Positions 42,668 through 46,370 of a DNA stretch of 51,968 nucleotides are shown one piece after another. The position numbers and the translations under genes are program-made. Source of the stretch: Candidatus Rokuibacteriota bacterium (GTDB lineage: Bacteria > Methylomirabilota > Methylomirabilia > Rokubacteriales > CSP1-6). The notes beneath the pieces were generated by a model. That model was given only the letters and a program-made list of their open reading frames with translations, ran no database searches and was not told where the DNA came from. The stretch is taken from NCBI GenBank assembly GCA_016188005.1, contig JACPIQ010000133.1, positions 1 to 51,968 on the forward strand, given 5' to 3'. Position 1 is the stretch's first letter; each line of letters begins with the position of its first letter.

Positions 42668-42883
42668 ATGGCAGACACGGAGTGGGAGCTGCTTACCGTG
42701 CGCGGGCTCGCGGGGACCGATGAGCAGGCCTCCGAGTTCGTGGGCACCTTCGTCATCCACCGGAAGGGGAGCAGCGAGCCCGTGGAGAGCGTCACGGTGC
42801 GCGTCAGGCGCAGCGTGCTGGAGGAGCTGGAGACGACGCTCCGGCGCCTGCTCGCCCGCTCCACCCCCTTCGGCCCGCGATGA
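42668..42883 (+). CDS. Small protein of unknown function
   Basis: A 71-residue protein beginning MADTEWELLTVRG. I chose ATG 42668 because AAGGA lies about 8 bases before it; ATG 42653 and 42551 in the same frame add residues that lack any pattern. The sequence has a beta-rich first half (ASEFVGTFVIHRKG, VESVTVRVRRSV) and a helical end (LEELETTLRRLLAR). No family is recognised. It lies 67 bases before the cyclase gene on the same strand. Confidence 0.6.
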   Translation: MADTEWELLTVRGLAGTDEQASEFVGTFVIHRKGSSEPVESVTVRVRRSVLEELETTLRRLLARSTPFGPR

Positions 42884-42950
42884 GGGCCGCGGGCGAGCCG
42901 CTCGCCGCGCAGCTGAGCGGCGCCGGGGGCCGGGGCGTCGACCGCCGGGC

Positions 42951-45344
42951 GTGAGCGCATCTGGCGAGAAGACCCTCTGCTGGACCCTCCTGGGGCTTGC
43001 CCTCGTCCTCTCGGTGCGCGCCGCCGGTGACCAGTGGCAGCTCACGGGACGCACCGTGCCCGGCTTCGGCGTGATGGACAATCTCCTCGTGGCCGTGGGC
43101 GGGATGGAGACGCGCGGTCTCATTCCCTTCGACCTCGTGCGCGCCGTCAACGGCCAGCTCCTGACCTCGGGGCGGCAGCTCCAGGAGGAGGTGGGCCGGC
43201 ACCCGCCGGGCACCACCTTCCGGTACCTCGTGAGCCGGCGCGGCGCCCTCGTCGAGATGGACGTCCCCAGCCAGCGCATGGCCCCGGACGGTTTCCATTC
43301 CTACGCAGTGGAGGGCCTCGCGCCGTCGCTGCTCTTCCTGCTCCTGGGTGCCGCGGTGCTCTGGCTCAAGCCCGCAGCGCCCGACACCCGCCTGTTCCTG
43401 GCCCTGTGCCTGGTCTGGTGGGGCATGACGGGGCTCTACGCGGACGCCCACCTGACCTACCGGTTCTCGGCGCTGTTCCTCACCGCCTGGACGCTCTCAC
43501 CCGCGGTGTTCATCCACCTGGCGCTCACCTTCCCCCAGCGCCGCCGCATTCTCGGCCGCTGGCCGCGCCTGGTCTGGGCGCCCTATCTGCTGTCCGCCGT
43601 CATCGCGGTGCCACTCCAGGGCTTCCTGCCCATGCCCCCGGCCCGGTGGGCGGCCGTCCCGGCCGTCGGAGCGGCCTACTGGGGGATCGCGCTCCTGCTC
43701 CTCGTCGCGGCGCTGGCCAGGACGAGCCTCGCCGGCGTCACGCCTCTGGTGCGACAGCGGGCGCGGGTGCTGATGTTCGGCTTCGCTGCGGGGCAGCTCG
43801 CGCCGGTGCTCGCGACGGCCAGCGAGGCCATCTTCCGGATCAGCGTGCCGTACCTCAGCGAGATCTGGCGGCTGAACCTCCTCTTCCCCGTGGCGGTGGC
43901 CTATGCCATGGTGCGCTACGACCTCTTCGACGTCCGCGGAGCGCTCCGGACAGGGACGGTGTATGCCGTCATCACGGGCCTGGTGGCCCTCGCCTACGCC
44001 GGCGCCATCACCCTCGTCAATCTCGCCTTCTCGGCGCTGGGCACCGGGGGCTCGCGCCTCGTCTCGGCCGCCGTGGTGGCCGTGGCCGTGGTGGCGCTCC
44101 TCGATCCAGTGCGCCGGCGCACTCAGTCCACTGTGGACCGGGTCTTCTTCCGCCAGCAGCTCGATGTCCAGGAATCCATCGAGCGCCTCACCGAGGCGCT
44201 CTCCACGGAGCTGGATCTCGAGCGCATCGCCCGGCTCATCGCGGCCACCCTGGACGCGGCCTTCCATCCGGTGCGGCAGACGCTCTTGCTCCTGGACGAG
44301 ACGAGCGCGCAGTACCACGACGTGCGGGGCCAGCAGGCCCCGGTGCCCGCGAGCTCCGCGCTTCCGGCCTGTCTGGCCGCGCGGCCCATGCCGCTCACGC
44401 GCCAGCGCTTCGAGGCCGATCCCGAGCTGGCCGGATGGTGCGCCGCTGGTGTCCCCTGGATGGAGGCCCTCGGCGCCGAGGTGGCCGTGCCGGTGCCCTT
44501 CCAGGGGCGCGTGACGGGGCTCCTCGCGCTGGGGCCGAAGCGGTCCGGCGCGGCGTGGAGCGCGACCGACCTCAGGCTCCTCAGGGTGCTCGCGACCCAG
44601 GGCGCCGTGGCGCTGGAGAACGCCCGCGCCTACACGGCCCTCGAGCGGGCCAACGCCGAGCTCCAGTCAGCCCTGCGGCGCGTCGAGGTCCTGGAGTCCA
44701 TCCGGGCGAGCCTCTCGAAGTTCGTACCGCGGCGCGTGCAGGAGCTGATCGAGCAGGCGCCCGAGGCCCCCGCGCTGACCAAGCGCGAGGTGGACGTGTC
44801 CGTGCTCTTCGTCGACATCGCCGGCTACACGCGGCTCAGCGAGCGCTTCGACCTGGAGCAGGTCAACCGGCTGGTGGAGCGTTACTTCGGCTCCTTCCTG
44901 GACGAGATCCTCCGCCACGGCGGCGATGTCAGCGAGACGGCGGGCGACGGGCTGATGGTGATCTTCCAGGACGCCGAGCCGCGGCGCCACGCCCGGGCCG
45001 CGGTGCTCACCGCCCAGGGCGTGATCCGGCGTTCTCAGGAGATCAACGTCGAGGTCACGGGGGTGAGCGAGCCGATCCGTCTCCACGTCGGGGTGAACTC
45101 GGGGATCGCCGCAGTGGGGGCGACCAAGATCGAGGGCAAGGCCGGGACGCGCTGGGTGTACACCGCCTCCGGCCCCGTCACCAACATCGCGGCGCGGCTG
45201 GCGGGGCTGGGGGAAGGTGAAGGCGTGTTCATCGGCGCCGAGACGGCGGGCCGGCTCGACGGCGAGTTCCTCCTGGAGGATCTGGGGGAGCAGCGCTTGA
45301 GGAACGTCGAGGAGGCGGTGCGGGTCTTCCGCCTCGCCGTCTAG
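42951..45344 (+). CDS. Membrane class III nucleotide cyclase with PDZ-like, membrane and GAF domains
   Basis: A 797-residue signalling protein. Domains in order: an N-terminal membrane anchor, a PDZ-like periplasmic region (about 35-105, with IPFDLVRAVNGQLLTSG), seven or more helices (about 120-390), a GAF domain (about 415-560) and a class III cyclase catalytic domain (about 612-797). The latter has the first metal Asp in VLFVDIAGYTRL, the second in ETAGDGLMVIF, and the Asn/Arg pair in GPVTNIAARL; the substrate-selecting position before the Asn-Arg segment is Thr (VYTASGP), as in many bacterial adenylate cyclases. It probably makes cAMP. GTG 42951 is used; the frame is open farther upstream over the small protein gene. 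Its stop codon touches an inverted-repeat element. Confidence 0.88.
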   Translation: MSASGEKTLCWTLLGLALVLSVRAAGDQWQLTGRTVPGFGVMDNLLVAVGGMETRGLIPFDLVRAVNGQLLTSGRQLQEEVGRHPPGTTFRYLVSRRGALVEMDVPSQRMAPDGFHSYAVEGLAPSLLFLLLGAAVLWLKPAAPDTRLFLALCLVWWGMTGLYADAHLTYRFSALFLTAWTLSPAVFIHLALTFPQRRRILGRWPRLVWAPYLLSAVIAVPLQGFLPMPPARWAAVPAVGAAYWGIALLLLVAALARTSLAGVTPLVRQRARVLMFGFAAGQLAPVLATASEAIFRISVPYLSEIWRLNLLFPVAVAYAMVRYDLFDVRGALRTGTVYAVITGLVALAYAGAITLVNLAFSALGTGGSRLVSAAVVAVAVVALLDPVRRRTQSTVDRVFFRQQLDVQESIERLTEALSTELDLERIARLIAATLDAAFHPVRQTLLLLDETSAQYHDVRGQQAPVPASSALPACLAARPMPLTRQRFEADPELAGWCAAGVPWMEALGAEVAVPVPFQGRVTGLLALGPKRSGAAWSATDLRLLRVLATQGAVALENARAYTALERANAELQSALRRVEVLESIRASLSKFVPRRVQELIEQAPEAPALTKREVDVSVLFVDIAGYTRLSERFDLEQVNRLVERYFGSFLDEILRHGGDVSETAGDGLMVIFQDAEPRRHARAAVLTAQGVIRRSQEINVEVTGVSEPIRLHVGVNSGIAAVGATKIEGKAGTRWVYTASGPVTNIAARLAGLGEGEGVFIGAETAGRLDGEFLLEDLGEQRLRNVEEAVRVFRLAV

Positions 45345-45481
45345 GGGGTCAGGTCTTGCATTCCGACATCGGCAGGGATGCCATCCTGCATGCGGACATC
45401 GGTCACGGCACCGATCATCGTGTAACGCCGGGAGCGCAGCAGCGGTGGGGGGCACGTGTCATATTGCAAGACCTGACCCCC
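45344..45481. mobile_element. MITE-like 138-bp element with perfect 17-bp inverted repeats
   Basis: The ends GGGGGTCAGGTCTTGCA (45344-45360) and its exact reverse complement (45465-45481) bound 138 bases without a gene of its own. The left end shares its first G with the cyclase stop codon; the right end lies inside the EamA gene and codes its last residues. The inner 104 bases contain further short palindromes (for example GGATGCCATCC). The shape fits a small non-autonomous element of MITE or REP/RAYT type; no transposase is nearby. Confidence 0.7.
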
Positions 45482-46370
45482 GCCGGGGCGCCAGCGCGAG
45501 CAGGGCGAGGGCGGCCAGGAGCAGCGCCGCGCCCGCGGAGCCGGCCAGACCGAGACGCTCGCCGAACCACAGGACCCCGAGCGCCGCCGCGGTGAGCGGT
45601 TCGAGCAGCGTGGCGATGCCGGCCGCCGTGGCGGGGACGCGCGCGAGGCCTGTCGTGAAGAGGGTGTACGAGAGCGCCGTCGGGCCGAGGCCGAGGTAGA
45701 CGAGGAGCGGCCACCCCGCGGCGATGGGCGCCCAGACAGCGCGCTCCGCCAGCAGCGCGGGAGAGAGCAGCAGCGCCGCCAGCGTGAACGTCGCGGCGGC
45801 CTGGGGCAGGGGCGCCATGCGGGCCAGAAGGCGCTTGGCCGCCACGGCGTAGACGGCGTAAGATAGCCCCGCGCCCAGCGCCAGCAGCGCCCCCAGACCG
45901 AAGCCACCGGCGACCTCCCCGAGCCCTCGCGGTCCCACGACGAGGAGGGCGGTGCCGCTGACGGCCAAGGCGAGGGACAGGCCCACGCCCGCGGTGAGTC
46001 GCTCGCCGAGGACAGCCCTGGCCAGGAGCGCGATCATGAGCGGGGCCGAGCAGATCGCCAGCAGTGCCGCGACGGCCACTCCCGTGAGCGTGACGGCGCG
46101 GAAGTAGCACACCTGGTAGGCGGCCATGGCGGCGCCGAGGGCCAGGCACGAGGCGGTGTCGACGGCGGTCCATGGCCGTGGCCCCCGCCCGGCGCGGCGA
46201 GCCCGCGTGAGCCAGGCGGCCGCCAGGAGGCAGGGCGCGGCCACCGCGAGCCGCGCCCAGCCTACTAGGAGCGGGCCCGCCGCCGCCTCCCGGGTGAGCA
46301 GCGTCATCGTCGCTCCGGTGGTGCCCCACGAGACGGCGGCCAGGCAGATGAGCAGAAGCCCGACGAGCAT
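45459..46370 (-). CDS. EamA/DMT-family transporter
   Basis: A 303-residue membrane protein with ten predicted helices and the two-fold EamA repeat: first half from LLLICLAAVSWGTTGATMTLL, second half from LGALLALGAGLSYAVYAVAAKRLL. EamA proteins export amino acids, nucleotide sugars or other metabolites; the substrate cannot be predicted. The C-terminal seven residues (after RR, GSGLAI) and the TGA at 45459-45461 are encoded by the inverted-repeat element, so its end was reset by the insertion. It diverges from the cyclase-family hydrolase across 29 bases. Confidence 0.88.
   Translation of the reverse strand: MLVGLLLICLAAVSWGTTGATMTLLTREAAAGPLLVGWARLAVAAPCLLAAAWLTRARRAGRGPRPWTAVDTASCLALGAAMAAYQVCYFRAVTLTGVAVAALLAICSAPLMIALLARAVLGERLTAGVGLSLALAVSGTALLVVGPRGLGEVAGGFGLGALLALGAGLSYAVYAVAAKRLLARMAPLPQAAATFTLAALLLSPALLAERAVWAPIAAGWPLLVYLGLGPTALSYTLFTTGLARVPATAAGIATLLEPLTAAALGVLWFGERLGLAGSAGAALLLAALALLALAPRRGSGLAI

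Follow-up and report, generated by a model that had tools for sequence, protein, structure and literature searches.

A small inverted-repeat element between convergent genes of a Rokubacterial genome: a probable non-autonomous derivative of TIRtron elements

The 138-base inverted repeat that separates two convergent genes in the window (the whole 51,968-nt stretch of DNA that was analyzed) belongs to a small mobile DNA element that is present in about 60 copies in its source genome, here called G000. With a probability of about 0.88, we read it as a TIRtron derivative that is internally deleted and non-autonomous; the HUH/Y1 transposase, of the TIRYT type, would recognize the ends and insert the element beside a TAG-like motif, and no regulatory function would be needed to account for it. 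A REP-associated tyrosine transposase, intact in related genomes but persisting only as ruins in G000, probably mobilized the element in the past.

The element and its neighboring genes

Perfect 17-bp inverted repeats enclose 138 bases overall at positions 45344-45481, exactly where the initial annotation had placed them. GGGGGTCAGGTCTTGCA is found at 45344-45360 on the forward strand, and positions 45465-45481 carry the exact reverse complement; these two arms are the sole copies of GGGGGTCAGGTCTTGCA in the window with up to three mismatches (0.18 expected). According to a repeat search, the arms reach 25 nt imperfectly, with 88% identity. The features of the locus are as follows.

42720..45344, + strand: upstream convergent gene, putatively cyclase-like (open reading frame as read in the initial annotation)
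45342..45344, + strand: TAG that ends the cyclase gene; the element starts on its G
45344..45481, + strand: probable non-autonomous TIR element, a miniature derivative of a TIRYT/RAYT element (judged from inverted repeats, copies and shared ends)
45345-45480: conserved core ends GGGG...CCCC, the outermost G/C pair being extra in the window copy
45344..45360, + strand: left terminal inverted repeat, L type, GGGGGTCAGGTCTTGCA then TTCCGACATCGG
45354..45402, + strand: left end repeated imperfectly, in direct orientation, inside the element (repeat search; consensus of 21 full-length copies)
45465..45481, - strand: right terminal inverted repeat, R type, GGGGGTCAGGTCTTGCA then ATATGACACG
45459..45461, - strand: TGA that terminates the EamA gene, contributed by the element and lying three bases inside the right repeat
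45459..46370, - strand: downstream convergent gene, putative EamA-type transporter (open reading frame as read in the initial annotation)

The two units of the internal direct repeat (45354-45372 and 45384-45402) are 84% identical. This degenerate second left end, present within full-length copies, suggests an earlier internal duplication.

Both window genes owe a stop codon to the element, as had been claimed from the reading frames. The left repeat does start on the last base of the cyclase TAG (45342-45344), and the codons of the right repeat do encode the end of the EamA protein (...GSGLAI*), with the TGA just inside the element. The placement between convergent genes was also correctly described, and comparison with two congeners identifies it as an insertion: the locus is filled in G002 (91% identical), whereas G001 has both genes and no element. 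In G001 the cyclase extends 6 residues further, with the C terminus FRLAVPTGVEV*, and the EamA gene has its own tail. The window copy would then have entered before the split of G000 and G002, shortening the tail of the cyclase and rewriting that of the EamA protein.

Dispersed copies and a transposase with the same ends

A 15-base terminus, searched with at most one mismatch, gave 128 matches in the 5.37-Mb genome of G000 compared with 1 for the reversed control, so the inverted-repeat terminus occurs far beyond chance. With the 138-base query, 78 matches were obtained in the same genome, of which about 22 were nearly full-length, with identities of 68-79%. Copies were gathered from these searches and from regions, and at least 56 paired elements (a lower bound) could be assembled, measuring 49-187 bp including the GGGG ends, plus one of 410 bp. 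The ends of the G000 elements are asymmetric, as one continues TT(A/C)CGACATCGG and the other ATCC(A/G)ACACG. The initial annotation had proposed a genome-wide search, and had reasoned that a single copy conserved in relatives would indicate a fixed terminator; the 128 termini of a multicopy small inverted-repeat element argue against that outcome.

A fixed transcription terminator acting in both directions between the convergent genes, with no link to mobility, would have explained the strong hairpin formed by the window element as RNA (-74.4 kcal/mol, z -5.8), its position between convergent genes, and the presence of 51 of 53 copies downstream of a gene. Intrinsic terminators consist of a GC-rich hairpin followed by a U run, but 0 such sites were found in 45150-45700, and a search of the element against Rfam gave no match. 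The suggestion that the element serves both genes as a terminator is therefore not borne out as far as an intrinsic role is concerned. As an origin, a fixed terminator is extremely unlikely, being refuted by the many dispersed copies, the empty site in the congener and a transposase gene with the same ends. A secondary effect of the element on mRNA ends is possible.

The transposase gene, a RAYT or IS200-type enzyme that the initial annotation had proposed to look for, was found between the same ends in G004, G008, G020 and G022, where they bound an element of about 1 kb carrying a Y1_Tnp gene, and as two ruins in G000. In G002 the Y1_Tnp copy runs off the contig, with one end seen. The transposases match the NCBIfam family REP_Tyr_transpos (NF047646), two of three above the cut-off and the G022 protein below it, and those of the relatives also match PF01797. 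A C-terminal helix-turn-helix domain (HTH_38/HTH_23) is present in three of the four, in some cases just below the Pfam cut-off, and none is listed for the G022 protein. Terminus copies were found in all 5 family genomes with the gene versus 4 of 30 without it (one-sided p 3.9e-4); the Y1 genes of G001, G011 and G032, judged by eye to be of the ordinary IS200 type, were not counted.

In autonomous relatives, the counterpart of the window element's L-type left repeat is the end upstream of the transposase gene, and that of the R-type right repeat is the downstream end. For the miniature elements in general, the L and R ends match the 5' and 3' ends of the transposase element over about 25-30 nt, but the middle does not; outside these ends (about 25-30 nt each), the 140-bp type has no sequence in common with the transposase gene. 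Of 80 named relatives of the transposase, 49 are bordered on both sides by inverted ends resembling GGGGTCAGGTCTTG, and a further 11 on a single side. A plasmid search for the transposase yielded only distant relatives (<60% identity).

No intact transposase is present in the G000 assembly. A Pfam search at E 1e-3 detected no Y1_Tnp in this genome and missed the two relics (C8:57108 and C84), which were found with the transposase protein of the congener. The relic at C8:57108 is the 410-bp copy, which retains the first 49 residues (90% identical) and a remnant of the helix-turn-helix between the same ends. The other relic keeps about 41 residues:

C84:36673-36795 (G000): decayed transposase relic, corresponding in locus to the intact copy of G004

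It adjoins the same upstream gene as the intact G004 copy (81% over about 470 bp), which is a case of vertical inheritance followed by loss.

From these comparisons we infer a parent TIRtron of about 1 kb, with inverted repeats GGGGTCAGGTCTTGCA, that would encode an HUH/Y1 TIRYT with a C-terminal helix-turn-helix. This transposase would recognize ends of about 25 nt and, by analogy with IS200/IS605-type enzymes, may cut and join one DNA strand. Insertion in these lineages would take place beside a short motif containing or resembling TAG. Copies would then collect at gene ends because TAG is rare in a GC-rich genome except as a stop codon, and there they would do little harm, the junction still giving a stop.

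Two details of the transposase elements may be added. In many named relatives we noted, by eye, a TTGNNN in the terminus followed by a TATGATA-like box about 45 nt before the transposase ATG, possibly a promoter built into the terminus. The right end of the G022 transposase element (2292-2335) is a short palindromic miniature copy, that is, a nested or doubled right end.

Insertion sites and stop codons

Empty sites were searched with the joined flanks of 32 other G000 elements. Further sites without an element in G001 are those at C8:71907, C62, C68:125903, C104, C114, C122 and C139. In G002, common sites are occupied by elements of different internal length, and the sites at C42:21700 and C122:8870 are empty. 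Filled and empty sites together with the length differences therefore indicate that elements arrive at a site and that their length changes afterwards. At filled sites, a few of the ancestral bases are usually lacking, which counts against plain single-strand insertion because such insertion would not remove bases. No congener was found among the G004 relatives, hence there are no empty sites for this lineage.

Terminal inverted repeats, non-coding content and multiple copies would also be expected of a MITE derived from a DDE insertion sequence with an undetected transposase. The mark of a DDE-type MITE is a target site duplication. Such duplications, which the initial annotation had suggested looking for, are absent in G000, G004 and G020, where direct flanking repeats of at least 4 nt are no commoner than in shuffled pairs. 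The sole gene type found between these ends is moreover Y1/HUH. This explanation was set aside, and its probability is next to negligible.

Classified by neighboring genes with a codon-usage score, 19 of 53 G000 elements are in convergent, 32 in codirectional and 2 in divergent arrangement, and a gene reads into the element in 51 of 53 cases. A TAG precedes 22 of 106 element ends in this genome compared with a background of 0.8%, and 18 in-frame inbound stops lie at offsets 0 to +2. In G004, the excess of TAG falls three bases beyond the element, at 11 of 42 ends; G020 favors the flank (A/G)ATC, alike at both ends. TAG makes up 24 of 37 nearby inbound stops in G000, 13 of 22 in G004 and 13 of 17 in G020 versus 29 of 104 in the background, which was taken from G000 only; the distance windows were picked after viewing the stop lists.

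The over-representation of TAG at a lineage-specific distance suggests either that the target motif contains TAG or that a ready-made stop is selected for. In the first case, tyrosine transposases would target a TAG-containing motif at a distance specific to each lineage, and in GC-rich genomes the miniature elements would act as stop-codon-homing mobile elements that supply both neighbors with a replacement stop; we regard this as a tentative proposal, somewhat less than evenly probable. The second, to which we assign a similarly guarded likelihood, is that insertion is random and pure selection follows, since a copy in the 3' end of a gene must leave a stop. It is compatible with the TIRtron origin as such. 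In its favor, the TAG in G000 uses the element's own G, in the frame of the gene in most cases, and several TAGs, including that of the window, are absent in element-free relatives. The raised TAG share of stops near the ends in three genomes speaks against selection alone, as do the excess TAG of G004, located where the element contributes no base, and the separate flank preference of G020. Among 13 informative TAG ends compared by hand with an element-free relative, about 5 had the TAG already there and 8 did not, a split that fits a simple TAG target only partly.

Relation to known elements

Members of the IS200/IS605 family have a fixed target tetranucleotide at the left end. The elements described here share with this family the HUH/Y1 catalytic domain and the lack of a target duplication, but they have perfect TIRs, and their flank preference is only partial and lineage-specific. 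IS200/IS605 elements have no terminal inverted repeats and carry subterminal hairpins instead (PMC2817692, PMC6006769).

The REPINs and GTAG REPs with their RAYTs (Bertels and Rainey, 2011, PMC3116915; Nunvar, 2010, PMC2817692) are similar in that a single transposase gene goes with numerous short, non-autonomous copies, located at 3' gene ends and giving a TAG to flanking ORFs. GTAG REP termini have been reported to supply TAG to ORFs often (PMC3733652). A canonical GTAG REP/REPIN family moved by an E. coli-type RAYT would thus agree with the RAYT-family enzyme, with the many short copies per transposase gene, with the long hairpin from two inverted ends, with the 3'-end placement and with the provision of TAG. 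However, the ends pair only with each other and are not self-complementary hairpins, no hairpin within a single arm of the window element being found by repeat search. A constant GT(A/G)G tag, such as REPs have at the foot of the hairpin, is lacking at either end of the elements (TAG stands at 21% of ends), and the C-terminal HTH of the transposase is typical of subclass 2.1/TIRYT, not of the REP-associated classes. A canonical REP identity is therefore very improbable. From the original proposal of a MITE/REP-type mobile element, the multicopy nature and the RAYT/IS200-type transposase with shared ends stand, and the canonical REP identity, for want of a constant GTAG tag, does not.

The closest likeness is to TIRtrons, defined together with TIRYTs by Di Nocera et al. 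(2013, PMC3733652), in which a RAYT-like tyrosine transposase gene is flanked by long TIRs that are also dispersed as repeats. Their TIR motif GGGGWSAS is represented by GGGGTCAG in nearly all copies, and a RAYT-like Y1/HUH gene lies within TIRs in the four genomes with complete elements and in the 49 relatives with ends on both sides. Quentin et al. (2018, PMC6006769) assign most TIRYTs to subclass 2.1, which has a C-terminal HTH, a domain that three of our four transposases possess. With the TnpA-Y1 proteins of this subclass they further share the length and the absence of canonical REPs beside the gene, the HTH being HTH_23/HTH_28-like; this placement is inferred from domains and not from a tree.

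An orphaned, non-autonomous TIRtron/TIRYT derivative is thus of a kind already known (Di Nocera et al., 2013), to which the present family adds a tractable case. Compared with the published TIRtrons, it adds a new host lineage, a terminus extension, miniature forms of 140 bp and about 50-90 bp, and documented empty sites, an internally deleted transposase copy and a lineage-specific flank motif. The letters of the terminus, on either strand, gave nothing in the searchable literature, and the Rokubacterial family was not found there. TIRYT elements have hardly been studied so far. Here, related genomes provide an intact transposase with many copies, a ruined transposase with orphan copies, and both filled and empty sites, which opens mobility, end recognition and the choice of target to direct tests. 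Placement at stop codons provides a straightforward explanation of how compact genomes can tolerate elements of this kind.

Terminus copies were also noted outside the bacterial assemblies: the 7.4-kb contig IMGVR_UViG_3300029286_003067, called viral and possibly bacterial DNA miscalled as such, contains six of them.
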